This document shows positions 8,215 through 62,285 of a stretch of 64,000 nt of DNA, one piece after another. A program made the translations under genes and the position numbers. The DNA lies in assembly GCF_026151205.1 (NCBI RefSeq), contig NC_087074.1, positions 7,357,726-7,421,725 of the forward strand. Reading direction: 5' to 3'. Under the pieces are notes generated by a model. That model was not told the origin of the DNA, did no database searches, and worked only from the letters and a program-made list of their open reading frames with translations. This DNA comes from Bolinopsis microptera. Taxonomy: Eukaryota > Ctenophora > Tentaculata > Lobata > Bolinopsidae. How positions within the stretch are numbered: position 1 is the stretch's first letter; each line of letters starts with the position of its first letter.

Positions 8215-9186
8215 TGGAGACGAGGAAAAGGTTCAAAAATGCTTTACCATTAGTCTTGATAAGAGATAATAGGTTACCTAAAGAAAAATGTAGAATAAAG
8301 AAACATACTGAATTAAATAATTGAAGAAATGATAAATAACATATTGTTAGAGACAAAAAACTCAGACTTTTAAGCTATAAGTATAAGCTAAGGTGAAAAG
8401 TACGTTAGAGCGGAGTGCTTCAGGTGCTTGTAGGTTTATAACCTACCAAGACGTGCGCCGAGTTGAACTCGTCGATCCAGTCTTATTTGAAACAAATATT
8501 TAAAAATACTGAACGATCTTGAAACAAAGAAAGAGTTGCTACGTATCCAAACTAAGCAGCCTCGTTACACCGTACTTATCACTTGATGACTGTTTAGACA
8601 GTCAAAAGGTATCATGTCAGTCGATATGATGACATTAGAAATGAAACGGCGCGCGGCCGACTGCGCGATTATCTGGCGGCAAAGACCTATTCTCTACTAT
8701 TAGTGAAAAGTACAGAAAGTCGTTATTAAATACGTACGTTACGTCTGACCTGCAATGTAAGTACTTCTCCTCTTAGCATTGAAGAGTGCTGCTCATTTGA
8801 AGCAACGATCACACAAAGTGACTGAGTATGATTGAGATTACCCTAATCTTGTGCACCACTCATCAGGATAATCTTACTATCTTACACTTCACGGCAATGA
8901 CCCACCAACAGTAAACAATAGAATTATAAACCAGGCGAGGTTTTCCTGGAGAAGAATCTGTGTGCATATCGTGATTAACCCTTTCTAGCTTAATTAGCCT
9001 ATTTGTAGTGTACACCAGGGAGAGATCTAATTAGCATATCGTTTATAACTCCCACCCTTAGTCGGACTAAAAAAGTAAAAACACAATACTCTCAAGAACA
9101 TGCTACCTCAAACCCAGGCATATCTTAGTCTCCTACATATTATGATGCAGAGTGAAATATATATGATTTATAAGATGAAAATTAAA
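8215..9186. other. Non-coding upstream of GPCR 1
   Basis: Contains the second copy of the dispersed hairpin repeat at 8430-8510 and a GC-rich patch at about 8645-8680. No promoter motif can be assigned with confidence. Confidence 0.4.
8430..8510. repeat. Dispersed repeat starting with a short hairpin (copy 2)
   Basis: Same start as 1020-1102: GTAGGTTTATAACCTAC, then CAAGACGTGCGCCGAGTTG, then AACAAATATTT. The orientation is the same as copy 1. Confidence 0.55.
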
Positions 9187-12637: not shown

Positions 12638-13970
12638 CTGGGTTATAAAATGTCAAGTGTCCATAACCTCAAAGCTAACCACATCAGAGGCGGCTCGTGG
12701 GAGCTGGTTGGCAGTTGTGTCGGGTGTCCAATCGACGGACTCAGGGTGCTTGGAGCAGTCGGGTCACATAACCCTTAATAAACCCTAACCCGTGCCAAAA
12801 ACAATCGAATTCGTGTTTTACTAGCCTGTCACGTGACCAAACCATGACCATTTTTTTTGCTCATAACTCCTCAGGGAAGTGTTTTAACCCTTAATAAACC
12901 CTAACCCGTGCCAAAAACAATCGAATTCGTGTTTTACTAGCCTGTCACGTGACCAAACCATGACCATTTTTTTGCTCATAACTCCTCAGGGAAGTGTTTT
13001 AACCCTATGTCATTAGGTATGTTTCAGAATCAGCATCGAAAGTTAAATACATTGGATGATGCTACTTATTGTAAAAATCTTAAAAATCCTTGGCGAGTGA
13101 TCTAATGGCTCCGATTTTACAATTCCGAGAGCAAATCTTGAGCCACAAAGAATCTACTTTCACAACGGTAGTTAAGGATCATTTAGCTGAGAGCACAAGG
13201 TCATTAGATGCGGTAAAAGGCAGCTTTTCCTGTCCAGGGGAAAACAATGAAAGAAATAGTCCAAATGTCATAGCTGAAAGTAAGTGAGAGAGATTGCAAT
13301 ACAGGTAGCTGCATCAGCTGAGCGAGCTCAAGCAGTTAGAGTGAACAATATACAAGTATTTAGGGGACAACATGGTGGTTATTTCTATTTTCTAGACCAG
13401 AGCGGCATGGTAGCTGAGCTAAACGGTATGGTGGTGATTGTCACGTGGTGTCGAGCGTGAAAACTGAACACGTGACCAAAAATTCTGCCTCACGGTTGGT
13501 CAGGCAAAACCAGCTCGACATCTGGTTGGTCCAGCAATCAGCTCGTTCAAGAGCACACGTCGTTCAGCTAATACCCTCGGTTTTTCACGTACAAACAGGA
13601 TTTGCTGTCTCTCTCTCTCTCTTCTTTTCTTTTCCCAGTTATATGCTTGTAGTTTCCTTTTATCTATAACGCATGAACTTGTTAGCGGTTTTGTTAAATA
13701 TCAATATTGCTTTATGATTTCTTCCCCGCGATGCAACTGTGTACAATTTAGGATAACAGCATGAGCGGGCATGTATCGTAGCGAACATATTTACAGTAAA
13801 CTATTTCATATTTTACAACTCAGAGCGTTGTTAGTGTCAGTCTTGTTCTATTTATCACACTAGGCCCCCCTCTATCTATCGAAATACGTTTCAGGGTGCA
13901 TTCTATTTTGAGGCACTGCCATTTTATTTATCAATAAGATAATTTATCTTATCAACAAGTTAAGAGAATA
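12638..13970. other. Region upstream of the receptor gene
   Basis: Includes the 116-bp duplication at 12771-13001. A short open stretch at 13105-13280 is followed by a donor-like GAAA|GTAAGT, but has no other exon support. A CT run lies at about 13608-13625. Any promoter of the receptor gene starting at 13971 should lie at the right end, where a small AAGATAATTTATCTT palindrome occurs at about 13936-13951. Confidence 0.35.
12771..13001. repeat. Tandem duplication, ~116-bp unit
   Basis: Two consecutive copies (12771-12886 and 12887-13001) starting ACCCTTAATAAACCCTAACC and containing CCTGTCACGTGACCAAACCA. They differ by one T in a poly-T run. A third copy starts at about 13002 but is cut after TTTTAACCCT. 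Confidence 0.9.
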
Positions 13971-14020
13971 ATGAGGATATCCCAAATCTTACTGATACCC
14001 CTTCTCATCATCGGAACGGA
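13971..14020 (+). CDS. Probable signal-peptide exon of the Cys-rich array receptor
   Basis: The ATG at 13971 opens MRISQILLIPLLIIGTEG, a good secretion signal, placed 380 bp before the first array unit. No GT donor follows: the reading frame runs into 19 consecutive G (14021-14039) and then a hAT-like transposon end. So the original donor has been lost, or the poly-G is an assembly gap or slippage artefact. Assignment to this gene rests on position, strand and the need for a leader. The minus-strand modular gene with a related architecture also starts with a separate signal exon. Confidence 0.45.
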
Positions 14021-14062
14021 GGGGGGGGGGGGGGGGGGGCAACAGGCGACGTTACGCCAATG
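14021..14062. mobile_element. Poly-G plus truncated right end of a hAT-like element
   Basis: Nineteen G followed by CAACAGGCGACGTTACGCCA and ATG, directly abutting GACCGAAG, the first bases of the array. The 24-nt end matches, with a few changes, the right end of the complete 246-bp element at 31939-32184 (CAACAGGCAACGTCACGCCA then CTG). The rest of this copy is missing. Confidence 0.6.
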
Positions 14063-14401
14063 GACCGAAGGGGTTCATCCTGAATTTATGTTAATCTTAG
14101 AAACGCAATAATGTGTGCGAATAAACATAGATTGAAATACTGATGTCAGCAAGCAAAGTTTAGTATTTGTATATTTGGTATTACTATATACGTTTATGAG
14201 GTCCCATCACAGATGATCGAAAGGAATTCCTGTGAATGAAATGCAACTATTGTATGTGAACACCACCCGCACACACTTTGACGCTTATCCAATATTCAAA
14301 TAAAAGCGAACCATCCCTAAAAGGGTACTTCCAATCTTAAGCTGCTTGCCTGCGGCTGAAACTTGCAACTAATACTTGACTAAACTCGACTATACTTGCA
14401 G

Positions 14402-14573
14402 AAGATTGTGTTGCGGGCCAGTTAGTTAGTATCTGGGTCAGTCAACTGGCTGTGCAGCCTGTCCGGCAGATGAATGGAGTGCTGCAGCAAACACAGCTGA
14501 TACCTGCACTGCCTGTCCAGCTGGCAAAGGGGTAGCCTCTGAGCAGGAACACAACAAAGTGATTGCACATGGA
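14402..14573 (+). pseudogene. Cys-rich domain exon 1, frame-broken
   Basis: 172 nt instead of 165: an 8-nt insertion (a GTTAGTTA duplication after GGCCA) and a 1-nt loss in CTCTGAGCAG. Splice sites are intact but inclusion would shift the frame. Edge subtype (TAD, AGKG, QQ). Confidence 0.8.
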
Positions 14574-14943
14574 GTAAGTTGTTGTTTCCTAAAAATTGGA
14601 GGGACCGAAGGGGTTCATCCTGAAATTTATGTTAATCTTAGAAATGCAATAATGTGTGCGAATAAACATAGACTGAAATACTGACGTCAACAAGCAAAGT
14701 TTAGTATTTGTACAATAATTGGTATTACTATACGTTTATGAGGTCCCATCACAGATGCTCGAAAGGAATTCCTGTGAATGAAATGCAACTATTGTATGTG
14801 AACACCACCCGCACACACTTTGACACTTATCCAATATTCAAATAAAAGCGAACCATCCCTAAAAGGGTACTTCGAATCTTAAGCTGCTTGCCTGCGGCTG
14901 AAACTTGCAACTAATACTTGACTAAACTCGACTATACTTGCAG

Positions 14944-15108
14944 AAGATTGTGTTGCGGGCCAGTATCTGGATCAGTCAACTGGCTGTGCAGCCTGTCCGG
15001 CAGATGAATGGAGTGCTGCAGCAAACACAGCTGATACCTGCACTGCCTGTCCAGCTGGCAAAGGGGTAGCCTCTGGAGCAGGAACACAACAAAGTGACTG
15101 CACATGGA
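14944..15108 (+). CDS. Cys-rich (GCC2/GCC3-like) domain exon 2; family description
   Basis: 165 nt, phase 1 in and out, 55 residues. Starts DCVAGQYLDQSTGCAACPAD and ends SGAGTQQSDCTW. Cysteine pattern C-x11-C-x2-C-x14-C-x2-C-x16-C: six Cys, as in ephrin-receptor-like GCC2/GCC3 and TNFR-type extracellular repeats. Because length and phases are symmetrical, any number of these exons can be joined or skipped with the frame kept, and the last one joins the CCP exon at 32309 (A|TT = Ile). Twenty-one in-frame copies would give about 1,150 extracellular residues. A stalk, adhesive or ligand-binding role is inference. Variant residues here: ST, AA, E, A, T-AD, GKG, A, Q. Confidence 0.8.
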
Positions 15109-15483
15109 GTAAGTTGTTGTTTCCTAAAAATTGGAGGGACCGAAGGGGTTCATCCTGAAATTTATGTTAATCTTAGAAATGCAATAATGTGTGCGAATAA
15201 ACATAGACTGAAATACTGACGTCAACAAGCAAAGTTTAGTATTTGTACAATAATTGGTATTACTATACGTTTATGAGGTCCCATCACAGATGCTCGAAAG
15301 GAATTCCTGTGAATGAAATGCAACTATTGTATGTGAACACCACCCGCACACACTTTGACACTTATCCAATATTCAAATAAAAGCGAACCATCCCTAAAAG
15401 GGTACTTCGAATCTTAAACTGCTTGCCAGCGGCTGAAACTTGCAGTTCTATAAATACTTGACTAAACTCGACTATACTTGCAG

Positions 15484-15648
15484 AAGATTGTGTTGCGGGC
15501 CAGTATCTGGATCAGTCAAGTGGCTGTCAAGCCTGTCCGGCAGATCAATGGAGTTTAGCAGCAAACGCAGCTTCTACCTGCACGGCATGTCCAGCTGACA
15601 AAGAGGTAGCCTCTGGATCAGGAACACAAGAAAGTGACTGCACATGGA
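15484..15648 (+). CDS. Cys-rich domain exon 3
   Basis: In frame, core subtype: SSGCQACPADQWSLAANAAS, then ADKEVASGSGTQES. The most common subtype; copies 9-12, 14, 16 and 20 read the same. Confidence 0.8.
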
Positions 15649-16017
15649 GTAAGTTGTTGTTTCCTAAAAATTGGAGGGACCGAAGGGGTTCATCCTGAAA
15701 TTTATGTTAATCTTAGAATGCAATAATGTGTGCGAATAAACATAGACTGAAATACTGACGTCAACAAGCAAAGTTTAGTATTTGTACAATAATTGGTATT
15801 ACTATACGTTTATGAGGTCCCATCACAGATGCTCGAAAGGAATTCCTGTGAATGAAATGCAACTATTGTATGTGAACACCACCCGCACACACTTTGACAC
15901 TTATCCAATATTCAAATAAAAGCGAACCATCCCTAAAAGGGTACTTCGAATCTTAAGCTGCTTGCCAGCGGCTGAAACTTGCAACTAATACTTGACTAAA
16001 CTCGACTATACTTGCAG

Positions 16018-16182
16018 AAGATTGTGTTGCGGGCCAGTATCTGGATCAGTCAACTGGCTGTGCAGCCTGTCCGGCAGATGAATGGAGTGCTGCAGCAAAC
16101 ACAGCTTCTACCTGCACTGCATGTCCAGCTGACAAAGAGGTAGCCTCTGGAGCAGGAACACAAGAAAGTGACTGCACATGGA
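16018..16182 (+). CDS. Cys-rich domain exon 4
   Basis: In frame, mosaic of edge and core subtypes: STGCAACPADEWSAAANTAS, then ADKEVASGAGTQES. Confidence 0.8.
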
Positions 16183-16552
16183 GTAAGTTGTTGTTTCCTA
16201 AAAATTGGAGGGACCGAAGGGGTTCATCCTGAAATTTATGTTAATCTTAGAAATGCAATAATGTGTGCGAATAAACATAGACTGAAATACTGACGTCAAC
16301 AAGCAAAGTTTAGTATTTGTACAATAATTGGTATTACTATACGTTTATGAGGTCCCATCACAGATGCTCGAAAGGAATTCCTGTGAATGAAATGCAACTA
16401 TTGTATGTGAACACCACCCGCACACACTTTGACACTTATCCAATATTCAAATAAAAGCGAACCATCCCTAAAAGGGTACTTCGAATCTTAAGCTGCTTGC
16501 CTGCGGCTGAAACTTGCAACTAATACTTGACTAAACTCGACTATACTTGCAG

Positions 16553-16717
16553 AAGATTGTGTTGCGGGCCAGGCTCTGGATCAGACAACTGGCTGTGGAC
16601 CCTGTCCGGTAGATCAATGGAGTGACGCAGCAAACACAGCTTCTACCTGCACGGCATGTCCTGCTGGCAAAGGGGTAGACACTGGAGCAGGATCACAAGA
16701 AAGTGACTGCACATGGA
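16553..16717 (+). CDS. Cys-rich domain exon 5 (most divergent intact copy)
   Basis: In frame, with changes not seen elsewhere: GQALDQTTGCGPCPVDQWSD, and AGKGVDTGAGSQES. The flanking introns are like all others, so the exon alone has diverged. Confidence 0.8.
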
Positions 16718-17088
16718 GTAAGTTGTTGTTTCCTAAAAATTGGAGGGACCGAAGGGGTTCATCCTGAAATTTATGTTAATCTTAGAAATGCAATAATGTG
16801 TGCGAATAAACATAGACTGAAATACTGACGTCAACAAGCAAAGTTTAGTATTTGTACAATAATTGGTATTACTATACGTTTATGAGGTCCCATCACAGAT
16901 GCTCGAAAGGAATTCCTGTGAATGAAATGCAACTATTGTATGTGAACACCACCCGCACACACTTTGACACTTATCCAATATTCAAATAAAAGCGAACCAT
17001 CCCTAAAAGGGTACTTCGAATCTTAAGCTGCTTGCCAGCGGCTGAAACTTGCAGTCTAATACTTGACTAAACTCGACTATACTTGCAG

Positions 17089-17253
17089 AAGATTGTGTTG
17101 CGGGCCAGTATCTGGATCAGTCAACTGGCTGTCAAGCCTGTCCGGCAGATCAATGGAGTGCTGCAGCAAACGCAGCTTCTACCTGCACGGCATGTCCAGC
17201 TGACAAAGAGGTAGCCTCTGGAGCAGGAACACAAGAAAGTGACTGCACATGGA
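17089..17253 (+). CDS. Cys-rich domain exon 6
   Basis: In frame: STGCQACPADQWSAAANAAS, then ADKEVASGAGTQES. Confidence 0.8.
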
Positions 17254-17624
17254 GTAAGTTGTTGTTTCCTAAAAATTGGAGGGACCGAAGGGGTTCATCC
17301 TGAAATTTATGTTAATCTTAGAAATGCAATAATGTGTGCGAATAAACATAGACTGAAATACTGACGTCAACAAGCAAAGTTTAGTATTTGTACAATAATT
17401 GGTATTACTATACGTTTATGAGGTCCCATCACAGATGCTCGAAAGGAATTCCTGTGAATGAAATGCAACTATTGTATGTGAACACCACCCGCACACACTT
17501 TGACACTTATCCAATATTCAAATAAAAGCGAACCATCCCTAAAAGGGTACTTCGAATCTTAAGCTGCTTGCCAGCGGCTGAAACTTGCAGTCTAATACTT
17601 GACTAAACTCGACTATACTTGCAG

Positions 17625-17790
17625 AAGATTGTGTTGCGGGCCAGTATCTGGATCAGTCAACTGGCTGTGCAAGCCTGTCCGGCAGATCAATGGAGTGCTG
17701 CAGCAAACGCAGCTTCTACCTGCACTGCATGTCCAGCTGACAAAGAGGTAGCCTCTGGAGCAGGAACACAAGAAAGTGACTGCACATGGA
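17625..17790 (+). pseudogene. Cys-rich domain exon 7, +1 frameshift
   Basis: 166 nt. It reads TGTGCAAGCC where other copies have TGTGCAGCC or TGTCAAGCC; the extra base makes it look like a union of the two variants. Splice sites intact. Confidence 0.8.
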
Positions 17791-18161
17791 GTAAGTTGTT
17801 GTTTCCTAAAAATTGGAGGGACCGAAGGGGTTCATCCTGAAATTTATGTTAATCTTAGAAATGCAATAATGTGTGCGAATAAACATAGACTGAAATACTG
17901 ACGTCAACAAGCAAAGTTTAGTATTTGTACAATAATTGGTATTACTATACGTTTATGAGGTCCCATCACAGATGCTCGAAAGGAATTCCTGTGAATGAAA
18001 TGCAACTATTGTATGTGAACACCACCCGCACACACTTTGACACTTATCCAATATTCAAATAAAAGCGAACCATCCCTAAAAGGGTACTTCGAATCTTAAG
18101 CTGCTTGCCAGCGGCTGAAACTTGCAGTCTAATACTTGACTAAACTCGACTATACTTGCAG

Positions 18162-18326
18162 AAGATTGTGTTGCGGGCCAGTATCTGGATCAGTCAAGTG
18201 GCTGTCAAGCCTGTCCGGCAGATCAATGGAGTTCTGCAGCAAACGCAGCTTCTACCTGCACGGCATGTCCAGCTGACAAAGAGGTAGCCTCTGGAGCAGG
18301 AACACAAGAAAGTGACTGCACATGGA
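18162..18326 (+). CDS. Cys-rich domain exon 8
   Basis: In frame: SSGCQACPADQWSSAANAAS; Ser at the variable position after W-S is unique to this copy. Then SGAGTQES. Confidence 0.8.
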
Positions 18327-18699
18327 GTAAGTTGTTGTTTCCTAAAAATTGGAGGGACCGAAGGGGTTCATCCTGAAATTTATGTTAATCTTAGAAATGC
18401 AATAATGTGTGCGAATAAACATAGACTGAAATACTGACGTCAACAAGCAAAGTTTAGTATTTGTACAATAATTGGTATTACTATACGTTTATGAGGTCCC
18501 ATCACAGATGCTCGAAAGGAATTCCTGTGAATGAAATGCAACTATTGTATGTGAACACCACCCGCACACACTTTGACACTTATCCAATATTCAAATAAAA
18601 GCGAACCATCCCTAAAAGGGTACTTCGAATCTTAAGCTGCTTGCCAGCGGCTGAAACTTGCAGTCTATAATACTTGACTAAACTCGACTATACTTGCAG

Positions 18700-18864
18700 A
18701 AGATTGTGTTGCGGGCCAGTATCTGGATCAGTCAAGTGGCTGTCAAGCCTGTCCGGCAGATCAATGGAGTTTAGCAGCAAACGCAGCTTCTACCTGCACG
18801 GCATGTCCAGCTGACAAAGAGGTAGCCTCTGGATCAGGAACACAAGAAAGTGACTGCACATGGA
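18700..18864 (+). CDS. Cys-rich domain exon 9
   Basis: In frame; same protein subtype as exon 3 (WSLAAN, SGSG). Confidence 0.8.
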
Positions 18865-19238
18865 GTAAGTTGTTGTTTCCTAAAAATTGGAGGGACCGAA
18901 GGGGTTCATCCTGAAATTTATGTTAATCTTAGAAATGCAATAATGTGTGCGAATAAACATAGACTGAAATACTGACGTCAACAAGCAAAGTTTAGTATTT
19001 GTACAATAATTGGTATTACTATACGTTTATGAGGTCCCATCACAGATGCTCGAAAGGAATTCCTGTGAATGAAATGCAACTATTGTATGTGAACACCACC
19101 CGCACACACTTTGACACTTATCCAATATTCAAATAAAAGCGAACCATCCCTAAAAGGGTACTTCGAATCTTAAGCTGCTTGCCAGCGGCTGAAACTTGCA
19201 GTTCTATAATACTTGACTAAACTCGACTATACTTGCAG

Positions 19239-19403
19239 AAGATTGTGTTGCGGGCCAGTATCTGGATCAGTCAAGTGGCTGTCAAGCCTGTCCGGCAGAT
19301 CAATGGAGTTTAGCAGCAAACGCAGCTTCTACCTGCACGGCATGTCCAGCTGACAAAGAGGTAGCCTCTGGATCAGGAACACAAGAAAGTGACTGCACAT
19401 GGA
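19239..19403 (+). CDS. Cys-rich domain exon 10
   Basis: In frame; exon 3 subtype. Exons 9-12 are consecutive copies of this subtype, suggesting recent duplication of a block. Confidence 0.8.
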
Positions 19404-19777
19404 GTAAGTTGTTGTTTCCTAAAAATTGGAGGGACCGAAGGGGTTCATCCTGAAATTTATGTTAATCTTAGAAATGCAATAATGTGTGCGAATAAACATA
19501 GACTGAAATACTGACGTCAACAAGCAAAGTTTAGTATTTGTACAATAATTGGTATTACTATACGTTTATGAGGTCCCATCACAGATGCTCGAAAGGAATT
19601 CCTGTGAATGAAATGCAACTATTGTATGTGAACACCACCCGCACACACTTTGACACTTATCCAATATTCAAATAAAAGCGAACCATCCCTAAAAGGGTAC
19701 TTCGAATCTTAAACTGCTTGCCAGCGGCTGAAACTTGCAGTTCTATAATACTTGACTAAACTCGACTATACTTGCAG

Positions 19778-19942
19778 AAGATTGTGTTGCGGGCCAGTAT
19801 CTGGATCAGTCAAGTGGCTGTCAAGCCTGTCCGGCAGATCAATGGAGTTTAGCAGCAAACGCAGCTTCTACCTGCACGGCATGTCCAGCTGACAAAGAGG
19901 TAGCCTCTGGATCAGGAACACAAGAAAGTGACTGCACATGGA
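19778..19942 (+). CDS. Cys-rich domain exon 11
   Basis: In frame; exon 3 subtype. Its upstream intron has TTAAACTGCTTGCC (A for G), a change shared with the intron before exon 3. Confidence 0.8.
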
Positions 19943-20316
19943 GTAAGTTGTTGTTTCCTAAAAATTGGAGGGACCGAAGGGGTTCATCCTGAAATTTATG
20001 TTAATCTTAGAAATGCAATAATGTGTGCGAATAAACATAGACTGAAATACTGACGTCAACAAGCAAAGTTTAGTATTTGTACAATAATTGGTATTACTAT
20101 ACGTTTATGAGGTCCCATCACAGATGCTCGAAAGGAATTCCTGTGAATGAAATGCAACTATTGTATGTGAACACCACCCGCACACACTTTGACACTTATC
20201 CAATATTCAAATAAAAGCGAACCATCCCTAAAAGGGTACTTCGAATCTTAAGCTGCTTGCCAGCGGCTGAAACTTGCAGTTCTATAATACTTGACTAAAC
20301 TCGACTATACTTGCAG

Positions 20317-20481
20317 AAGATTGTGTTGCGGGCCAGTATCTGGATCAGTCAAGTGGCTGTCAAGCCTGTCCGGCAGATCAATGGAGTTTAGCAGCAAACG
20401 CAGCTTCTACCTGCACGGCATGTCCAGCTGACAAAGAGGTAGCCTCTGGATCAGGAACACAAGAAAGTGACTGCACATGGA
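20317..20481 (+). CDS. Cys-rich domain exon 12
   Basis: In frame; exon 3 subtype. Confidence 0.8.
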
Positions 20482-20854
20482 GTAAGTTGTTGTTTCCTAA
20501 AAATTGGAGGGACCGAAGGGGTTCATCCTGAAATTTATGTTAATCTTAGAAATGCAATAATGTGTGCGAATAAACATAGACTGAAATACTGACGTCAACA
20601 AGCAAAGTTTAGTATTTGTACAATAATTGGTATTACTATACGTTTATGAGGTCCCATCACAGATGCTCGAAAGGAATTCCTGTGAATGAAATGCAACTAT
20701 TGTATGTGAACACCACCCGCACACACTTTGACACTTATCCAATATTCAAATAAAAGCGAACCATCCCTAAAAGGGTACTTCGAATCTTAAGCTGCTTGCC
20801 AGCGGCTGAAACTTGCAGTCTATAATACTTGACTAAACTCGACTATACTTGCAG

Positions 20855-21019
20855 AAGATTGTGTTGCGGGCCAGTATCTGGATCAGTCAACTGGCTGTGA
20901 ACCCTGTCCGGCAGATCAATGGAGTGTAGCAGCAAACGCAGCTTCTACCTGCACGGCATGTCCAGCTGACAAAGAGGTAGCCTCTGGAGCAGGAACACAA
21001 GAAAGTGACTGCACATGGA
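20855..21019 (+). CDS. Cys-rich domain exon 13
   Basis: In frame, distinct: STGCEPCPADQWSVAANAAS, then SGAGTQES. Glu-Pro between the second and third Cys and Val after W-S are unique. Confidence 0.8.
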
Positions 21020-21392
21020 GTAAGTTGTTGTTTCCTAAAAATTGGAGGGACCGAAGGGGTTCATCCTGAAATTTATGTTAATCTTAGAAATGCAATAATG
21101 TGTGCGAATAAACATAGACTGAAATACTGACGTCAACAAGCAAAGTTTAGTATTTGTACAATAATTGGTATTACTATACGTTTATGAGGTCCCATCACAG
21201 ATGCTCGAAAGGAATTCCTGTGAATGAAATGCAACTATTGTATGTGAACACCACCCGCACACACTTTGACACTTATCCAATATTCAAATAAAAGCGAACC
21301 ATCCCTAAAAGGGTACTTCGAATCTTAAGCTGCTTGCCAGCGGCTGAAACTTGCAGTCTATAATACTTGACTAAACTCGACTATACTTGCAG

Positions 21393-21557
21393 AAGATTGT
21401 GTTGCGGGCCAGTATCTGGATCAGTCAAGTGGCTGTCAAGCCTGTCCGGCAGATCAATGGAGTTTAGCAGCAAACGCAGCTTCTACCTGCACGGCATGTC
21501 CAGCTGACAAAGAGGTAGCCTCTGGATCAGGAACACAAGAAAGTGACTGCACATGGA
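21393..21557 (+). CDS. Cys-rich domain exon 14
   Basis: In frame; exon 3 subtype. Confidence 0.8.
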
Positions 21558-21927
21558 GTAAGTTGTTGTTTCCTAAAAATTGGAGGGACCGAAGGGGTTC
21601 ATCCTGAAATTTATGTTAATCTTAGAAATGCAATAATGTGTGCGAATAAACATAGACTGAAATACTGACGTCAACAAGCAAAGTTTAGTATTTGTACAAT
21701 AATTGGTATTACTATACGTTTATGAGGTCCCATCACAGATGCTCGAAAGGAATTCCTGTGAATGAAATGCAACTATTGTATGTGAACACCACCCGCACAC
21801 ACTTTGACACTTATCCAATATTCAAATAAAAGCGAACCATCCCTAAAAGGGTACTTCGAATCTTAAGCTGCTTGCCAGCGGCTGAAACTTGCAACTAATA
21901 CTTGACTAAACTCGACTATACTTGCAG

Positions 21928-22092
21928 AAGATTGTGTTGCGGGCCAGTATCTGGATCAGTCAACTGGCTGTGCAGCCTGTCCGGCAGATCAATGGAGTGC
22001 TGCAGCAAACTCAGCTTCTACCTGCACTGCATGTCCAGCTGACAAAGAGGTAGCCTCTGGAGCAGGAACACAAGAAAGTGACTGCACATGGA
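21928..22092 (+). CDS. Cys-rich domain exon 15
   Basis: In frame: STGCAACPADQWSAAANSAS; the Ser after AAN is unique. Then SGAGTQES. Confidence 0.8.
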
Positions 22093-22466
22093 GTAAGTTG
22101 TTGTTTCCTAAAAATTGGAGGGACCGAAGGGGTTCATCCTGAAATTTATGTTAATCTTAGAAATGCAATAATGTGTGCGAATAAACATAGACTGAAATAC
22201 TGACGTCAACAAGCAAAGTTTAGTATTTGTACAATAATTGGTATTACTATACGTTTATGAGGTCCCATCACAGATGCTCGAAAGGAATTCCTGTGAATGA
22301 AATGCAACTATTGTATGTGAACACCACCCGCACACACTTTGACACTTATCCAATATTCAAATAAAAGCGAACCATCCCTAAAAGGGTACTTCGAATCTTA
22401 AGCTGCTTGCCAGCGGCTGAAACTTGCAGTTCTATAATACTTGACTAAACTCGACTATACTTGCAG

Positions 22467-22631
22467 AAGATTGTGTTGCGGGCCAGTATCTGGATCAGTC
22501 AAGTGGCTGTCAAGCCTGTCCGGCAGATCAATGGAGTTTAGCAGCAAACGCAGCTTCTACCTGCACGGCATGTCCAGCTGACAAAGAGGTAGCCTCTGGA
22601 TCAGGAACACAAGAAAGTGACTGCACATGGA
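22467..22631 (+). CDS. Cys-rich domain exon 16
   Basis: In frame; exon 3 subtype. Confidence 0.8.
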
Positions 22632-23004
22632 GTAAGTTGTTGTTTCCTAAAAATTGGAGGGACCGAAGGGGTTCATCCTGAAATTTATGTTAATCTTAGA
22701 AATGCAATAATGTGTGCGAATAAACATAGACTGAAATACTGACGTCAACAAGCAAAGTTTAGTATTTGTACAATAATTGGTATTACTATACGTTTATGAG
22801 GTCCCATCACAGATGCTCGAAAGGAATTCCTGTGAATGAAATGCAACTATTGTATGTGAACACCACCCGCACACACTTTGACACTTATCCAATATTCAAA
22901 TAAAAGCGAACCATCCCTAAAAGGGTACTTCGAATCTTAAGCTGCTTGCCAGCGGCTGAAACTTGCAGTCTATAATACTTGACTAAACTCGACTATACTT
23001 GCAG

Positions 23005-23171
23005 AAGATTGTGTTGCGGGCCAGTATCTGGATCAGTCAAGTGGCTGTGCAAGCCTGTCCGGCAGATCAATGGAGTGCTAGCAGCAAACGCAGCTTCTAC
23101 CTGCACGGCATGTCCAGCTGACAAAGAGGTAGCCTCTGGAGCAGGAACACAAGAAAGTGACTGCACATGGA
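23005..23171 (+). pseudogene. Cys-rich domain exon 17, two 1-nt insertions
   Basis: 167 nt. It carries TGTGCAAGCC (as in exon 7) and GAGTGCTAGCAGC, the latter again a union of GTGCTGCAGC and GTTTAGCAGC variants. Net +2 frameshift. Confidence 0.8.
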
Positions 23172-23543
23172 GTAAGTTGTTGTTTCCTAAAAATTGGAGG
23201 GACCGAAGGGGTTCATCCTGAAATTTATGTTAATCTTAGAAATGCAATAATGTGTGCGAATAAACATAGACTGAAATACTGACGTCAACAAGCAAAGTTT
23301 AGTATTTGTACAATAATTGGTATTACTATACGTTTATGAGGTCCCATCACAGATGCTCGAAAGGAATTCCTGTGAATGAAATGCAACTATTGTATGTGAA
23401 CACCACCCGCACACACTTTGACACTTATCCAATATTCAAATAAAAGCGAACCATCCCTAAAAGGGTACTTCGAATCTTAAGCTGCTTGCCAGCGGCTGAA
23501 ACTTGCAGTCTAAATACTTGACTAAACTCGACTATACTTGCAG

Positions 23544-23709
23544 AAGATTGTGTTGCGGGCCAGTATCTGGATCAGTCAAGTGGCTGTCAAGCCTGTCCGG
23601 CAGATCAATGGAGTGCTAGCAGCAAACGCAGCTTCTACCTGCACGGCATGTCCAGCTGACAAAGAGGTAGCCTCTGGATCAGGAACACAAGAAAGTGACT
23701 GCACATGGA
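23544..23709 (+). pseudogene. Cys-rich domain exon 18, +1 frameshift
   Basis: 166 nt with GAGTGCTAGCAGC, the same variant-union insertion as in exon 17. Confidence 0.8.
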
Positions 23710-24082
23710 GTAAGTTGTTGTTTCCTAAAAATTGGAGGGACCGAAGGGGTTCATCCTGAAATTTATGTTAATCTTAGAAATGCAATAATGTGTGCGAATA
23801 AACATAGACTGAAATACTGACGTCAACAAGCAAAGTTTAGTATTTGTACAATAATTGGTATTACTATACGTTTATGAGGTCCCATCACAGATGCTCGAAA
23901 GGAATTCCTGTGAATGAAATGCAACTATTGTATGTGAACACCACCCGCACACACTTTGACACTTATCCAATATTCAAATAAAAGCGAACCATCCCTAAAA
24001 GGGTACTTCGAATCTTAAGCTGCTTGCCAGCGGCTGAAACTTGCAGTCTATAATACTTGACTAAACTCGACTATACTTGCAG

Positions 24083-24247
24083 AAGATTGTGTTGCGGGCC
24101 AGTATCTGGATCAGTCAAGTGGCTGTCAAGCCTGTCCGGCAGATCAATGGAGTTTAGCAGCAAACGCAGCTTCTACCTGCACGGCATGTCCAGCTGACAA
24201 AGAGGTAGCCTCTGGAGCAGGAACACAAGAAAGTGACTGCACATGGA
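24083..24247 (+). CDS. Cys-rich domain exon 19
   Basis: In frame: WSLAAN as in exon 3 but SGAG instead of SGSG. Confidence 0.8.
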
Positions 24248-24618
24248 GTAAGTTGTTGTTTCCTAAAAATTGGAGGGACCGAAGGGGTTCATCCTGAAAT
24301 TTATGTTAATCTTAGAAATGCAATAATGTGTGCGAATAAACATAGACTGAAATACTGACGTCAACAAGCAAAGTTTAGTATTTGTACAATAATTGGTATT
24401 ACTATACGTTTATGAGGTCCCATCACAGATGCTCGAAAGGAATTCCTGTGAATGAAATGCAACTATTGTATGTGAACACCACCCGCACACACTTTGACAC
24501 TTATCCAATATTCAAATAAAAGCGAACCATCCCTAAAAGGGTACTTCGAATCTTAAGCTGCTTGCCAGCGGCTGAAACTTGCAGTCTAATACTTGACTAA
24601 ACTCGACTATACTTGCAG

Positions 24619-24783
24619 AAGATTGTGTTGCGGGCCAGTATCTGGATCAGTCAAGTGGCTGTCAAGCCTGTCCGGCAGATCAATGGAGTTTAGCAGCAAA
24701 CGCAGCTTCTACCTGCACGGCATGTCCAGCTGACAAAGAGGTAGCCTCTGGATCAGGAACACAAGAAAGTGACTGCACATGGA
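24619..24783 (+). CDS. Cys-rich domain exon 20
   Basis: In frame; exon 3 subtype. Confidence 0.8.
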
Positions 24784-25156
24784 GTAAGTTGTTGTTTCCT
24801 AAAAATTGGAGGGACCGAAGGGGTTCATCCTGAAATTTATGTTAATCTTAGAAATGCAATAATGTGTGCGAATAAACATAGACTGAAATACTGACGTCAA
24901 CAAGCAAAGTTTAGTATTTGTACAATAATTGGTATTACTATACGTTTATGAGGTCCCATCACAGATGCTCGAAAGGAATTCCTGTGAATGAAATGCAACT
25001 ATTGTATGTGAACACCACCCGCACACACTTTGACACTTATCCAATATTCAAATAAAAGCGAACCATCCCTAAAAGGGTACTTCGAATCTTAAGCTGCTTG
25101 CCAGCGGCTGAAACTTGCAGTCTATAATACTTGACTAAACTCGACTATACTTGCAG

Positions 25157-25321
25157 AAGATTGTGTTGCGGGCCAGTATCTGGATCAGACAAATGGCTGT
25201 GCAGCCTGTCCGGCAGATGAATGGAGTGCTGCAGCAAACACAGCTGCTACCTGCACTGCCTGTCCAGCTGACAAAGGGGTAGCCTCTGGAGCAGGAACAC
25301 AAGAAAGTGACTGCACATGGA
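25157..25321 (+). CDS. Cys-rich domain exon 21
   Basis: In frame, transitional subtype: TNGCAACPADEWSAAANTAA, then ADKGVASGAGTQES. The intron after it has several private substitutions (TTTATGGTAA, GAAGTCAACA, TTTAAGAGG). Confidence 0.8.
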
Positions 25322-25692
25322 GTAAGTTGTTGTTTCCTAAAAATTGGAGGGACCGAAGGGGTTCATCCTGAAATTTATGGTAATCTTAGAAATGCAATAA
25401 TGTGTGCGAATAAACATAGACTGAAATACTGAAGTCAACAAGCAAAATTTAGTATTTGTACAATAATTGGTATTACTATACGTTTAAGAGGTCCCATCAC
25501 AGATGCTCGAAAGGAATTCCTGTGAATGAAATGCAACTATTGTATGTGAACACCACCCGCACACACTTTGACACTTATCCAATATTCAAATAAAAGCGAA
25601 CCATCCCTAAAAGGGTACTTCGAATCTTAAGCTGCTTGCCTGCGGCTGAAACTTGCAGTCTAATACTTGACTAAACTCGACTATACTTGCAG

Positions 25693-25857
25693 AAGATTGT
25701 GTTGCGGGCCAGTATCTGGATCAGTCAACTGGCTGTGGACCCTGTCCGGCAGATCAATGGAGTGCTGCAGCAAACACAGCTGCTACCTGCACTGCATGTC
25801 CAGCTGACAAAGGGGTAGCCTCTGGAGCAGGAACACAAGAAAGTGACTGCACATGGA
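25693..25857 (+). CDS. Cys-rich domain exon 22
   Basis: In frame: STGCGPCPADQWSAAANTAA, then ADKGVASGAGTQES. It shares Gly-Pro with exon 5. Confidence 0.8.
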
Positions 25858-26227
25858 GTAAGTTGTTGTTTCCTAAAAATTGGAGGGACCGAAGGGGTTC
25901 ATCCTGAAATTTATGTTAATCTTAGAAATGCAATAATGTGTGCGAATAAACATAGACTGAAATACTGACGTCAACAAGCAAAGTTTTGTATTTGTACAAT
26001 AATTGGTATTACTATACGTTTATGAGGTCCCATCACCGATGCTCGAAAGGAATTCCTGTGAATGAAATGCAACTATTGTATGTGAACACCACCCGCACAC
26101 ACTTTGACACTTATCCAATATTCAAATAAAAGCGAACCATCCCTAAAAGGGTACTTCGAATCTTAAGCTGCTTGCCTGCGGCTGAAACTTGCAACTAATA
26201 CTTGACTAAACTCGACTATACTTGCAG

Positions 26228-26392
26228 AAGATTGTGTTGCGGGCCAGTATCTGGATCAGACAAATGGCTGTGCAGCCTGTCCGGCAGATGAATGGAGTGC
26301 TGCAGCAAACACAGCTGATACCTGCACTGCCTGTCCAGCTGGCAAAGGGGTAGCCTCTGGAGCAGGAACACAACAAAGTGACTGCACATGGA
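26228..26392 (+). CDS. Cys-rich domain exon 23
   Basis: In frame, edge subtype: TNGCAACPADEWSAAANTAD, then AGKGVASGAGTQQS. Confidence 0.8.
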
Positions 26393-26753
26393 GTAAGTTG
26401 TTGTTTCCTAAAAATTGGAGGGACCGAAGGGGTTCATCCTGAAATTTATGTTAATCTTAGAAATGCAATAATGTGTGCGAATAAACATAGACTGAAATAC
26501 TGACGTCAACAACCAAAGATTAGTATTTGTACAATAATCGGTATTACTATATGTTTATGAAGTCCCATCACCGAAGCTCGAAAGGAATTCCTGTGAATGA
26601 AATGCAACTATTGTATGTGAACACCACCCGCACACACTTTGACGCTTATCCAATATTCAAATAAAAGCGAACCATCCCTAAAAGAATCTTAAGCTGCTTG
26701 CCTGCGGCTGAAACTTGCAACTAATACTTGACTAAACTCGACTATACTTGCAG

Positions 26754-26918
26754 AAGATTGTGTTGCGGGCCAGTATCTGGATCAGTCAACTGGCTGTGCA
26801 GCCTGTCCGGCAGATGAATGGAGTGCTGCAGCAAACACAGCTGATACCTGCACTGCCTGTCCAGCTGGCAAAGGGGTAGCCTCTGGAGCAGGAACACAAC
26901 AAAGTGACTGCACATGGA
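26754..26918 (+). CDS. Cys-rich domain exon 24
   Basis: In frame, edge subtype identical in protein to exon 2. Its upstream intron lacks the GGTACTTC segment present in most units; the downstream intron carries the piggyBac-type insertion. Confidence 0.8.
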
Positions 26919-28149
26919 GTAAGTTGTTGTTTCCTAAAAATTGGAGGGACCGAAGGGGTTCATCCTGGAATTTATGTTAACCCTTAAACAGCGAAGCAAA
27001 TATGTGCTTGTTAACGGCGAAGAGCACTCCATATGGACGGCCCCCATGTGACATACAATTTGGATATCGATCCTTTGGGTCACGTGGTAAGATTTTTGGT
27101 CCCGTGTCATGAAATAACGTAATAATTTTCCCGCTAATACATAAGGCATGGGCACTGTTCATAAAATTAGATCATCATTATATCCTGCAAAAGTAGAGCT
27201 ACTTTAGTATCAATAACTCAATTATGCCCGTGTAAGCTATTACACTTTTCTAAGGTTGGCTCGGATAAATTTAAATCTAGCTGTGTAGTTACAATTTGGA
27301 ATCCTAGAAAGTGACCATCTTGAAATAAAAATTAGTCTTTCATCGGTTTTACTTTATATTTGAAGATTCGATATGTGTCAAAAGTGTACTAAACATCAGG
27401 GCCTTGGCACGGTGTACTTTAAAGTTAAGCTGTGTTAACGTGATAAGCATGTTACTCATATAACTGTGTATTCTGTGTAGTATGTTCTAGGTGACACTGG
27501 TGTAATGTTTGTTGATAAAATTGTGACAAATCTCCGTATATTAAGTATAACCAAGGTGAAAGAAAACACAACATACGTTGGTCAGTTGGAGAAACATTTC
27601 AGTAAAGTCACTAGCAACAGGCATATAAGACATCAACTTTGTATATTTATGTTCATGTCTCCGTAAATCATATCTTGATCTATGACTATGATTTTATTGG
27701 AACTATGATTATGAATTTATATTTTGACTAAAACTGTCAAATTAGGTAATAAAAATACGAGGTTTTTTATTTAAAAAAGTTTTGTTTCCCCTTTTCAAAG
27801 CTTGAATATACAGCTTGTTTATCCTAAAGGTTCATTAATGAAGCTGAAAAAGCCTTACAGTGACTAACTTTTCATTTTGCTTACCGAAATTTACCTTCGC
27901 TATCGGTAAAATGAAAAATCTTTGCCTAGTCACACACAGGCGTACCGTCAGCTTGCAGCTGGACTCGCAGTATCCAAAAATTGAATTTATACTGTTTTAC
28001 AAATTGAAACACAGGATGACAAAAGTGTTCAGTAAAAATATTTTGGTGAATTATCGTCATCAATTTATTCTCATTGTTATCATCATTTCAATGAATGATT
28101 TGTTTTTTGTAATAGTAATACTAAAAGTGTAGTGGTAACAACAAAGCAA

Positions 28150-28790
28150 AATGGCTAGGGCTAGCAGTAGCAGTGGCAGCAGCCAGCGCTAGCAGTAGTA
28201 CATAGTAGCAGCCAGCGCTCGTTAGCGCTAACAGTAGCAGCAGCCAGCGCTCTTTGTGCTAGCACTAGCAGTTGCAGCAGCCAGTGCTCGTTGGCGCTAG
28301 CAGCAGCCAGCGCTCTTTGCACTAGCATTAGCAGTAGCCGGCGCCCGACGCTCGTTAGCGCTATCAGTAGCAGTAGCTGGCGCCCGATGCTCGTTAGCGC
28401 TAGCAGTAGCAGTAGCCGGCGCTCGTTAGCGCTAGCAGCAGCAGTAGCCGGCGCCCGACGCCCGTTGGCGCTAGCAGTAGCAGTAGCCGGCACTTGACGA
28501 TCATTACCGCTGCCGCTAGCAGTAGCAGTAGCCGGCGCTTGACGCTCATTAGCGCTGCCGCTAGCATGGTAGCAGTAGCCGGCGCTTGACGCTCATTAGC
28601 GCTGCCGCTAGCAGTAGCACTAGCCGGCGCTTGACGCTCATTAGCGCTGCTGCTGGCAGTAGCAGTAGCCGGCGCTTGACGCTCATCAGTGCTGCCGCTA
28701 GCACTAGCAGTATAAGCAGTAGCCGGCGCTTGACGCTCATTAGCGCTAGCAGAAGGAAGTGTAACTGTAAATTAGCATGACTTGCGCTAG
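28150..28790. repeat. GC-rich minisatellite (AGCAGTAGCCGGCGCTTGACGCTCATTAGCGCT...)
   Basis: About 640 bp of imperfect units of roughly 30-50 bp built from AGCAGTAGCAGTAGCC and GGCGCTTGACGCTCATTAGC. The best-kept copies lie at 28480-28750. GCGCTAAC-like words continue sparsely to about 29140. It lies inside the piggyBac-type element. Open frames through it on both strands are simple-sequence artefacts. Confidence 0.85.
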
Positions 28791-29734
28791 TTATAGCGCT
28801 TACGGTAACGGCACTACTGTGCTTCATTTAACTATGAGTATGGCTGCAATAATAATTTACTTGCTTATTGCTATTTACTTTCTACTGCCACAACTTACTT
28901 ACTATACTGTTACGTTGAGCTAGCTAACGCTAATGATAGCACTAACTAGCACCTTCTAATTTACTGACGAAGCGCTCACTAACGCCGGTTCGGGTTAGCT
29001 AACGATAAATATCGCAAAATCCCAGGTTCAATTTTGACAGTTTGTGGTACTGGTAGCTACCGCTAACTATATATGGAGAATAGAATAGCGCACCCATCTA
29101 AAACTAGCGCTAACTAATTTCATTTAGCGCAAACATACTCTACCATAACCAAGGCGAGGGAAATTTAGTATCGAGAATTGAGGTACAAAGCTCCATTCTT
29201 TCTTTTTGCTTTATTGCAGAGCTTGGTCTTATTTTAGCCATGAGGCTGTGAGGTTTGAAAAATAAAATAACTTTTTCCTGGTATCTTAGAAAATAAATGT
29301 TGTGAATATGCCACAGGCTAAATCAACGGCAACAATTTCGTCCTATCATTTTATAATCGGCTCATTTCATCACAGTTTGAAATTTAGAAATATGCAGCAA
29401 TAATGGATCGTGCACACGATATTTATAACTGCGTTAATTTTGACTGATAACTTGATAAGAAACAAAACAACATTATATGCTACAAAAACAAGCGATCATA
29501 ATTTCAAAGAATCTCAATGATAAAATAAATAATAAACTAGTAAACATATTTCGCAACCCTGGTTGTGTCAATAGTAATACATGGATTTATTTGCCGAATT
29601 TTTGTAATAATTGTAGCCCATTTCTGTCAGTTTTTGCAAAGAAAACTTGATTGTTAAACATGGATAAATTCAAAAGACCCTAATTCACGGGTTGAAGATT
29701 TTAAACAGTTTGCACAACCAGGATTGTGATTCAT

Positions 29735-30437
29735 TAGCAAGTTTCATAAAGCAAGAGGAGATGCACATTCTGCACCATGTGATGTTTATGGCAAATCCTA
29801 TCACCACACAGTTCACACATGCTATAAACAGCTGAAACCTTTTTGCTGTTTTTTATAGTCTTTCCCCTTACAGTTCGAGAGGCAGTCACGACACTGCTTC
29901 TTGCTTTCAACTTTCTTGGGGAAACTAATCATGCTGTTTGGGACTTCAGCTGTCCTCCGAAATTTAGGATTCCCCGTTATGTTGAATGCTGCTGTCAGGA
30001 CATGTGCTCTAACAGTCCAATGATGGGCTTTTCTATTAGCCAAGGCTTCATGAGAGATAGCACTTATTCCACCTGAATGAGTCCACTCTGATGGATTGCT
30101 TAGTTGGACGACAGTGTGGATGTTCACCCTTGTGGTGTCCAGAATGTAATACCACACGCAGTGTTTCCACTTGTTGGATTTCACCTTGGTACTGTATCGA
30201 CTGAAACAAGAACATTTGTTCATTTTGTGAAATATTTCTAAAATGTTCAGATATTATTATTATTAGTACTACTCGAGTAATACTACACATAATACACATA
30301 GTACTTTTTTAATAGGAATTTTAGTGACAATTAAACTAACCCTATCCTCTGATCCATCAAATCAGTTCCGTACTTAGTGAGGTCGTACAGCTTTCCGATC
30401 TGCATTCTGCGGCTTCTCTTTGTTATCGTCTTCTGTT
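29735..30437 (-). pseudogene. C-terminal fragment of a PGBD/piggyBac-like transposase with an intron
   Basis: The upstream segment 30341-30437 encodes IGKLYDLTKYGTDLMDQRIG, matching the piggyBac 'Y-x-x-x-D-x-x-D-Q' region. After a 140-bp GT-AG intron (30201-30340) the frame resumes in phase (GG|T = Gly, then RYSTKVKSNKWKHCVWYYIL), another transposase-core helix. The tail shows the Cys-rich zinc-binding domain (CRDC...NCKGKDY...GFSC), but the frame then stops. MCELCGDRICHKHH continues in another frame (ATG at 29820), so the end is frame-broken or spliced. The N-terminal and most of the DDE catalytic region were not found. Probably a decayed internal-deletion copy. Confidence 0.6.
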
Positions 30438-31736
30438 ACTCCTTTAAAATTAAATAGCACTGGTTTAATAACTATATTCTTGATGTTCACACGTACGTAA
30501 TGAGAAAAGTTTGTCAAAGTATCAGCTTTGAACGTAATTGAATAGATTGCAACACACAAAATAAATGGATTATTTTTACTGTCGATTTGAACTTAGCTGT
30601 AGCTGTACTATTTCAATAGAATACCAACTTCCTTGTCCATAAAGGAGAATATAAGTGCTGAGCTGCAACTCTGAAACACAAAATGTATTTTAAATTGATT
30701 GCACAATACAGTTGTTTCAAATGTAAGAATCTTTTTGTTGGCTACGAAGTGGGGATTCGCAATTTTGCAAAAAACGACATCAAACTATCAAATGAGAGCA
30801 TCTGCCGAAATTATGCCAGCTATGAATGCAAATCACACTGAAGAACAATGAAGAAGAGCGGCCGATATCACAATCACAGTAGCCGGGTTTCTTTATAGGA
30901 AGACAAATACAGGAGCAAAGCATAAATCATCGATGACAAATTACCGAATATTTTGATTCGGTTTCGTGATTCGTTAATATCAGTCACAAGAGAGAATCGT
31001 GCGCTCTCATTGGTTTTTATACTAGCGAGCATTAGCTCAAAGGTGCAACTCAATAATTGAGTTATTTGAAGCTCCTCCGATTGGATTGCAATGCGCTTTG
31101 TGACATGACATGTGATCCGCTGTCCACGTGGTGTTTACTTACCAATCAGATCACTTTAAAGTAACATATACCTAGTCGTCCAACTGGACGGTTCTCCGCT
31201 AGACATATTTAATGCAATTTTTGGCCTTTTTTTAACTAATAATTAACCATAACTATGTTAAATAATAATTTTTGTAAAAAACAGATAGTTTAGGCGATAG
31301 GTAGTGTTCTTGCCGATAGATAGCTGGCGTATCACCGGTATTGCTTATTGCTAATACATGTGGAACACAAATGGCAAAACATTGGAGTGGCACTCCACAT
31401 GGAGTGCTCTTCGCTGTTTAAGGGTTAATCTTAGAAATGCAATAATGTGTGCGAATAAACATAGACTGAAATACTGACGTCAACAAGCAAAGTTTAGTAT
31501 TTGTACAATAATTGGTATTACTATACGTTTATGAGGTCCCATCACCGATGCTCGAAAGGAATTCCTGTGAATGAAATGCAACTATTGTACGTGAACACCA
31601 CCCGCACACACTTTGACACTTATCCAATATTCAAATAAAAGCGAACCATCCCTAAAAGGGTACTTCCAATCTTAAGCTGCTTGCCTGCGGCTGAAACTTG
31701 CAACTAATACTTGACTAAACTCGACTATACTTGCAG

Positions 31737-31901
31737 AAGATTGTGTTGCGGGCCAGTATCTGGATCAGTCAACTGGCTGTGCAGCCTGTCCGGCAGATGA
31801 ATGGAGTGCTGCAGCAAACACAGCTGATACCTGCACTGCCTGTCCAGTTGGAAAAGGGGTAGCCTCTGGAGCAGGAACACAACAAAGTGACTGCACATGG
31901 A
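31737..31901 (+). CDS. Cys-rich domain exon 25 (last)
   Basis: In frame, edge subtype with Val-Gly-Lys-Gly (CPVGKGVASGAGTQQS). It is separated from exon 24 by the piggyBac-type insertion and ends TGGA|GTAAGT. Its phase 1 end joins the CCP exon at 32309. Confidence 0.8.
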
Positions 31902-31938
31902 GTAAGTTGTTGCTTTCTTAAAATTGGAGGGACCGAAG

Positions 31939-32184
31939 CAGTGGTGTAATGAAGGTCCCGCTGACCCGCTGTGCGTGGGGGGGATGGGTGTTTTAATGTG
32001 AGAAAATTTTGAAAATCTAAACAGCGGTACCAGCAAACCTGCGTGGTTTGCTCTAGTGGTTTGCTCTAGAACCACACTTTTTTAGAGATTTTACCTGTGT
32101 ACCCTCTAAAATCACATAATTGTTCAATTTTAGGGAGGGGCGCCAAAAGGGGAGGAGATGCCAACAGGCAACGTCACGCCACTG
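31939..32184. mobile_element. hAT-like non-autonomous element (246 bp) at the right border of the array
   Basis: Starts CAGTGGTGTAATGAAGG and ends GGCAACGTCACGCCACTG, giving CAGTGGYGTR terminal inverted repeats of the hAT type. The left flank is GACCGAAG (31931-31938), the array unit; the right flank is AATGATTT, which is not a matching target duplication. The matching GACCGAAG is next to the truncated copy at 14062. Confidence 0.6.
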
Positions 32185-32308
32185 AATGATTTAAAAGTCT
32201 TTTGAAGCCTCATTATATATTAAAAATGACCCGTTTATGGTATTAATTATTCGAATAAAGCGAATAATGCGAATAACAAAAATCTTTTAATATTAAATCA
32301 TCATGCAG

Positions 32309-32503
32309 TTATAAGCTGCAGTGGACTAAAGGCTGAGTGGACGGGTACGTTCGAAACGACGGAACAGTTCCCAGTACCACCAGGAACCGTGGTGGAAGTG
32401 ACATGCTCGAACTTTGGAGCTCTCAACAAAGGGAGCAGTGAAGTTACCTGCAAATCCGGGAATGATTTCAATTATGTAAAGGAGCTTAGTTGTTCAAGGC
32501 CAG
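32309..32503 (+). CDS. CCP/sushi-like domain exon of the array receptor
   Basis: 195 nt, phase 1-1, acceptor CATGCAG and donor CCAG|gtataa. Encodes SCSGLKAEWTGTFETTEQFP through ELSCSRP. It is the same length and phase as the minus-strand CCP exon at 141-335, and shares SC-GLKAEW, QFPV-PGTVVEV and ALNKGSSEVTC. It joins the last Cys-rich exon as CTW-I-ISC. This shows both genes use the Cys-rich then CCP order and descend from a common modular gene. Confidence 0.65.
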
Positions 32504-62270: not shown

Positions 62271-62285
62271 TACCTGGTTACTCAC

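Follow-up and report, generated by a model that had tools for sequence, protein, structure and literature searches.

The subject of this analysis is an array of 25 near-identical exon-intron units in Bolinopsis microptera, within 64,000 nucleotides of contig NC_087074.1 (positions 7,357,726 to 7,421,725; this whole stretch is called the window, and coordinates given without a contig refer to it). Each unit carries one short cysteine-rich exon. The interpretation that we modestly favor from sequence comparison is that the array comes from a ctenophore gene family with modular extracellular products, in which recent arrays would be under selection for diverse repeat surfaces. Two observations carry it: exons in the recent arrays are more diverged than the introns between them, and the same module occurs in several gene contexts across the genome. 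The 13 large contigs of the assembly are referred to as C1-C13; the window array is on C3.

Architecture of the array

All 25 units have TTGCAG just 5' of the exon and GTAAGTTG just 3' of it, and the distance from one unit to the next is 526-542 nt with the sole exception of units 24 and 25, which an insert separates by 4983 nt. Exactly 165 nt, phase 1-1, open and with six cysteines are 21 of the 25 exons (that of unit 2 translates as DCVAGQYLDQSTGCAACPADEWSAAANTADTCTACPAGKGVASGAGTQQSDCTW); the remaining four are frameshifted. The 25-unit array proposed in the initial annotation is therefore confirmed in its count, splice sites and ~540-nt spacing, but it is arranged as 24+1 and not all of its exons are intact. 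The exons fall into 17 distinct sequences, of which one is common to eight units, and we take the near-identity of the 540-nt units to be far beyond chance. The same annotation held that any subset of intact exons splices in frame. Indeed, all of 1000 random subsets remained open, and conceptual splicing of the 21 intact exons to the exon that follows the array yields 1219 residues free of stops.

When units 2-5 are spliced together, the translation scores above the Pfam cut-off for PF07699 Ephrin_rec_like (41.7 bits, cut-off 23.1), which we take to be the former GCC2_GCC3, and for TNFR_ELAPOR1_6th (71.0, cut-off 33.2). A single unit is below both (19.2 and 24.8, respectively). The suggestion of symmetrical GCC2/GCC3-type exons is borne out. 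The cut-off for TNFR_c6 (PF00020) was not reached by units 2-5 (26.7 versus 29.4). An AlphaFold2 model of an array exon had a predicted local distance difference test score (pLDDT) of 67, too weak for a structure search.

The exon downstream of the array, described earlier as a phase 1-1 complement control protein (CCP) exon, splices in frame to exon 25 and encodes four cysteines, but the Pfam check for Sushi was negative, with no family up to E=10. A profile built from seven relatives likewise matched no Sushi structure. This seven-row profile is nevertheless related by hhalign (91.6%, E 8e-7) to an exon on C7 that passes the Pfam Sushi cut-off (23.4 versus 20.7), and factor H is matched by an eight-row profile of which the C7 exon is part. 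Because Pfam finds no Sushi match whereas hhalign makes this connection, we term the exon CCP-like. Its structure model (pLDDT 48) was too weak to search.

Table 1. Features at and around the array (window coordinates)
Feature	Position	Strand	Remarks
Signal-peptide exon remnant, MRISQILLIPLLIIGTEG...	13971..14027	+	homology to the signal-peptide exons of C3:2.43 Mb
Right-end remnant of short inverted-repeat element, CGTTACGCCAATG	14040..14062	+	adjoins GACCGAAG of unit intron
Array exon 1	14402..14573	+	172 nt, frameshifted
Array units 2-6	14944..17253	+	exons intact, 165 nt each
Array exon 7	17625..17790	+	166 nt, frameshifted; looks like a hybrid of alleles at a variable site
Array units 8-16	18162..22631	+	exons intact
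Array exon 17	23005..23171	+	167 nt, frameshifted
Array exon 18	23544..23709	+	166 nt, frameshifted
Array units 19-24	24083..26918	+	exons intact
piggyBac-type insert	26977..31428		TTAA; perfect 20-nt inverted repeat at its ends; in intron between units 24 and 25
Array exon 25	31737..31901	+	intact
246-nt element, inverted-repeat ends CAGTGG.../...CCACTG	31939..32184		directly after GACCGAAG of unit intron
CCP(Sushi)-like exon	32309..32503	+	four Cys, phase 1-1; profile comparison with relatives

Exons are more diverged than introns in recent arrays

Mean pairwise substitution divergence among window units 2-24 is 0.049 in exons (the broken exons 7, 17 and 18 included) and 0.0084 in introns. 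This contrast, which the initial annotation did not remark on, is the strongest signal of the locus. In the exons of the 15 inner units 21 of 165 sites vary, and in the introns 4 of 373 columns do (p=2e-8). Single pairs can be extreme: window units 5 and 6 differ by 14 nonsynonymous and 2 synonymous changes, with 2/359 and 0/360 differences in the flanking introns, and units 5 and 8 of the C13 array differ by 11 nonsynonymous changes and no synonymous one, with intron differences of 1/348 and 3/350. Pair comparisons that involve the upstream side of C13 unit 1 (94-99 differences of ~351) lie at the array edge and were left out of the argument; downstream, the intron of this unit differs from those of units 8 and 10 at 7/346 and 9/334 positions.

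We pooled units from C3, C13, C1, C4 and C8, taking for each the exon, where intact and 165 nt long, and the first 330 nt of the next intron. The four broken C3 exons and a C8 exon with 15 extra nucleotides were not used, and of the 41 units left, C3 units 24 and 25 were omitted as their next intron is interrupted. In the resulting 39 units, nonsynonymous divergence (pN) is 0.0601, synonymous divergence (pS) 0.0186 and intron divergence 0.0080, giving a pN/pS of 3.2 (site bootstrap 1.3-36) and a pN/intron ratio of 7.5 (3.9-14.6); distinct changes number 33 nonsynonymous to 3 synonymous (one-sided p=0.017). The units are not independent, so these statistics serve as guides. The order, pN above pS above intron divergence, suggests diversifying selection in the young arrays. 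An excess of exon over intron divergence, several-fold in size, would directly reveal selection acting on a repeated module.

An RNA element that keeps the introns constant was also considered. No Rfam match is present in 13900-33000, and units on C2 differ from the window units by ~12% overall and by 13.5% in the exon, which indicates that the introns are free to diverge.

The module occurs in several gene contexts

Among the best 150 of 490 candidates, a protein search detected the module or related sequences on C1-C8 and C10-C13, so that at least 12 of the 13 large contigs have them. The detected exons are full-length throughout at C10 (24/24), C13 (10/10), C12 (5/5) and C2 (5/5), and the C10 introns differ in length (355-364 nt). 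What lies downstream varies. On C7 the array is followed on the same strand by the Sushi exon mentioned above, and on C13, again on the same strand, by LDLa (two repeats, 37.0 versus 24.1; the nearer exon is marginally below at 24.0). The 24 units on C10 precede at least 11 alike frames of ~110 residues (14.565-14.572 Mb of C10, L011-L012) with a C..W..C pattern, immunoglobulin-like by eye; one of them, when searched, gave no Pfam family. At C3:2.43 Mb a paralogous family has the order signal peptide, a ~150-residue domain without a Pfam name (here FAM) and CCP-like exon, and at C12:13.94 Mb five units lie between a FAM-like domain and a CCP-like exon. A further array, at C12:10.65 Mb (C12b), is succeeded by an HRM-like region (17.9, under the cut-off of 26.2), GPS (33.0) and 7tm_2 (71.5), all on the same strand. 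The next exon is entered in phase 1, as the array requires, at C3, C12 and C13. The variety of the domains after the arrays suggests that the module has been shuffled between genes, and one unit in several gene contexts would make exon shuffling observable while it is young.

A connection to adhesion G-protein-coupled receptors (GPCRs) is indicated by the CCP-like exon. One relative, L020, encodes FAM, CCP-like, GPS (23.2 versus 22.5) and 7tm_2 (134.6) domains; the module was not detected in it. More generally, members of the CCP-like exon family (the best 96 of 150 matches, at least 46.4 bits) are found within 8 kb upstream and on the same strand at 8 of 42 7tm_2 loci, the latter merged from 48 matches, whereas 2000 random placements, for which chromosome sizes were partly approximate, gave 0.09 on average and never more than 2. 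Judged by these arrangements, the arrays appear to belong to a gene family with modular extracellular products that includes adhesion GPCRs.

The units also seem to have traveled. Those on C1, C8 and C13 share an upstream boundary and flank, and those on C1 and C13 a downstream boundary too; upstream, the flanking sequence belongs to a high-copy repeat (at least 47 matches, 946 candidates). Unit introns of C3, C4 and C13 are up to 100% identical across chromosomes. Shared flanks and near-identical introns point to recent movement of the unit between chromosomes, probably in repeat-rich segments.

Other members and neighbors of the family were seen. The minus strand of the window holds a paralogous gene fragment at 139-2482, whose exons are FAM-like (~2437-2001), Cys-rich of half length (~705-606) and CCP-like (~336-142). 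As the minus strand has more CCP-like exons at C3:7.307, 7.318 and 7.333 Mb, these may form a cluster. Many homopolymer-like runs surround degenerate units in L001 upstream of 5283, in L002 (C4:3.306-3.322 Mb) and in a portion of the array at C12:10.65 Mb (L024-L025); such runs look as though the repeat consensus is poor there.

Proposed origin of the array and competing explanations

We propose that a six-Cys Ephrin_rec_like/TNFR-like module, on a symmetrical phase 1-1 exon within a ~540-nt unit, would expand through tandem duplication as well as gene conversion, and would be copied into several different genes. The window array would then represent 25 units flanked by the signal-peptide exon and the CCP-like exon, the latter from a family akin to adhesion-GPCR N-termini. 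Every module would add 55 residues to a presumably rod-like ectodomain. Selection for different repeat surfaces would be the simplest explanation for amino acids that have changed much faster than introns in the recent arrays (C3, C13, C1, C8 and C4). The proposal supposes that the array exons are transcribed together and that selection acts on binding, and it would attribute the damaged 5' end of the window gene to assembly error or recent decay. A receptor product, alternative splicing, copy-number variation and a part in allorecognition or immunity, as raised in the initial annotation, would be conjectural.

Several observations weigh against this proposal, the non-independence of the units among them. 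The divergence signal is weaker in C3 alone (pN/pS 1.6; 23 nonsynonymous to 2 synonymous changes, p=0.045), and on C10, C12, C2 and C7 the exons are less diverged than the introns, the ordinary pattern. In the window, inclusion of any of the frameshifted exons 1, 7, 17 and 18 adds a stop. The signal-peptide ATG described before the array does have homology to the signal-peptide exons of the paralogous family, but as assembled it has no donor that would splice in frame to the array: the exon merges downstream with a G-run and a transposon remnant, and the three GT dinucleotides that precede the stop have phases 2, 0 and 2, none of them the required phase 1. At the other end, tblastn with exons of two relatives found no GPS or seven-transmembrane (7TM) region in the window, although absence is no proof, and a 7tm_2 search of the genome gave no match within the window's interval. 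Element remnants are present at both array ends, in addition to the insert between units 24 and 25. Both ends adjoin short inverted-repeat element ends at one 8-mer of the unit intron, GACCGAAG, and so look element-made. The insert is called piggyBac-type from its TTAA and inverted repeats only, as Pfam found nothing above cut-off in two piggyBac transposase-like fragments. Elsewhere, the C4 array has seven intact identical exons followed by broken or degenerate units in poor-looking sequence, the C12b array is partly degenerate and its splice to the HRM-like region could not be verified in frame, and some of the C1, C8 and C13 copies, which lie beside the high-copy repeat, may be passengers.

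The array might instead encode an ordinary constitutive long stalk in which all intact exons are always included and copy number changes slowly, with no combinatorial or recognition role. We regard this as quite possible, if on balance doubtful. Modular proteins with Ephrin_rec_like and CCP domains are common (e.g. SVEP1), the splice signals are identical in every unit, and pN/pS is 0.48 over the 24 exons of C10. However, a constitutive stalk leaves the inverted divergence in C3 and C13 unaccounted for, and it requires that the broken exons be either skipped or artefactual.

Somewhat less probable, and in our view rather unlikely, is that the array copy in the window is dead or dying, having arisen by satellite-like tandem amplification in a decayed gene that had a signal peptide and a CCP exon, and that the functional arrays are those on C10, C12, C7 and C13. 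Consistent with decay, 4 of the 25 exons are broken, the signal-peptide exon is without a usable donor, a piggyBac-type insert and inverted-repeat elements are present, the C-terminal half was not found by tblastn in the window downstream, and on C4 a long stretch of degenerate sequence adjoins seven units whose exons are identical. On the other hand, 21 of 25 exons are open and amino-acid changes exceed intron changes. The frameshifts of exons 7, 17 and 18 fall at variable sites, where these exons resemble hybrids of two exon alleles, like a consensus error. The published report on the assembly describes wtdbg assembly with Illumina polishing by pilon (PMC10232365), which matters for repeats such as these, and part of the damage to the window copy may come from assembly. 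The window copy would thus be either functional with an assembly-damaged 5' end or recently decayed, while the module itself is probably functional somewhere, given the purifying pattern and the gene contexts.

The main rival to selection as the source of the inverted divergence is exon-only conversion from spliced (cDNA) or other templates, by which exon tracts of related genes would be pasted in, leaving introns unchanged, without selection. In eight C3 pairs the exons differ at 5-19 positions and each flanking intron at 0-5 of ~358, and in the C13 pairs 4-9, 5-7 and 5-8 there are 10-11 exon differences versus 1-3 of ~350 in the intron. Of 78 site pairs, 19 show all four gametes, the closest of them separated by 11 nt, which reflects exchange between units or recurrent change, and some residues are common to distant loci. 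Yet the most divergent exon, that of unit 5, has no close donor, its best match outside C3 being 78% identical in amino acids (best 150 of 373 candidates), and conversion alone does not predict the excess at nonsynonymous sites (33:3). We judge this explanation improbable.

We are similarly skeptical of a more far-reaching idea, that the module is a mobile, tandemly amplifying recognition cassette that, near dispersed repeats, enters phase-1 introns of various receptor genes, its introns kept uniform by conversion while its exons diversify. If true, adhesion-GPCR-like proteins and other surface proteins would carry a repertoire of hypervariable repeats. Another account was raised in the initial annotation as grounds for rejecting the gene, an unexpressed satellite derived from one exon: for the family as a whole it is disfavored by the full, open exons on C10, C13, C12 and C2, by other extracellular domains that follow several arrays on the same strand, and by pN/pS below 1 on C10, C12 (0.29) and C7 (0.48, a figure that mixes unlike unit types).

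Relation to known systems

Judged by title among the matches listed, open-access PMC text yielded no prior description of such an array and no paper on ctenophore allorecognition. Ephrin_rec_like/TNFR-like repeat proteins of the SVEP1, ELAPOR1 and SCUBE type resemble the array in having tandem six-Cys modules beside a CCP-like domain, but the window array has up to 25 near-identical modules, one exon each, in near-identical exon-intron units. With adhesion GPCRs (HRM-GAIN-GPS-7TM_2) the likeness lies in relatives of the CCP-like family that have GPS and 7tm_2 and in the C12b array upstream of such domains, and the difference in the window gene, where neither GPS nor 7TM was found. Dscam-type arrays share tandem exons in a surface protein; mutually exclusive splicing is a feature of Dscam, whereas the window modules may simply all be included.

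Fast-changing duplicates are familiar from venom gene families, for which one study reports a nonsynonymous to synonymous rate ratio (KA/KS) above 1 in duplicated copies (PMC6062510); in the window the duplicates are exons of one putative gene. Nematostella, another early-branching animal, has many tandem-repeat proteins, with Ka/Ks above 1 in ~40% of 94 tested (PMC2805694). The word "intron" is absent from the main text of that paper, whereas intron divergence is the yardstick for the window array.

Other features of the window

Four long uninterrupted frames encode rhodopsin-type GPCRs (7tm_1, 32-49 bits), at 7153-8232 (minus), 39514-40416 (plus), 44542-45738 (plus) and 46086-47201 (minus), three of which are alike in sequence by eye. 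A minisatellite at 28168-28747 lies inside the piggyBac-type insert. At 11411-12637 a 15-nt minisatellite, TTATAGCGAGGTGCG, is repeated in 82 copies and is open in several frames, up to 416 residues, and at 61932-62281 an 8-nt repeat, TTACCTGG, is present in ~43 copies.

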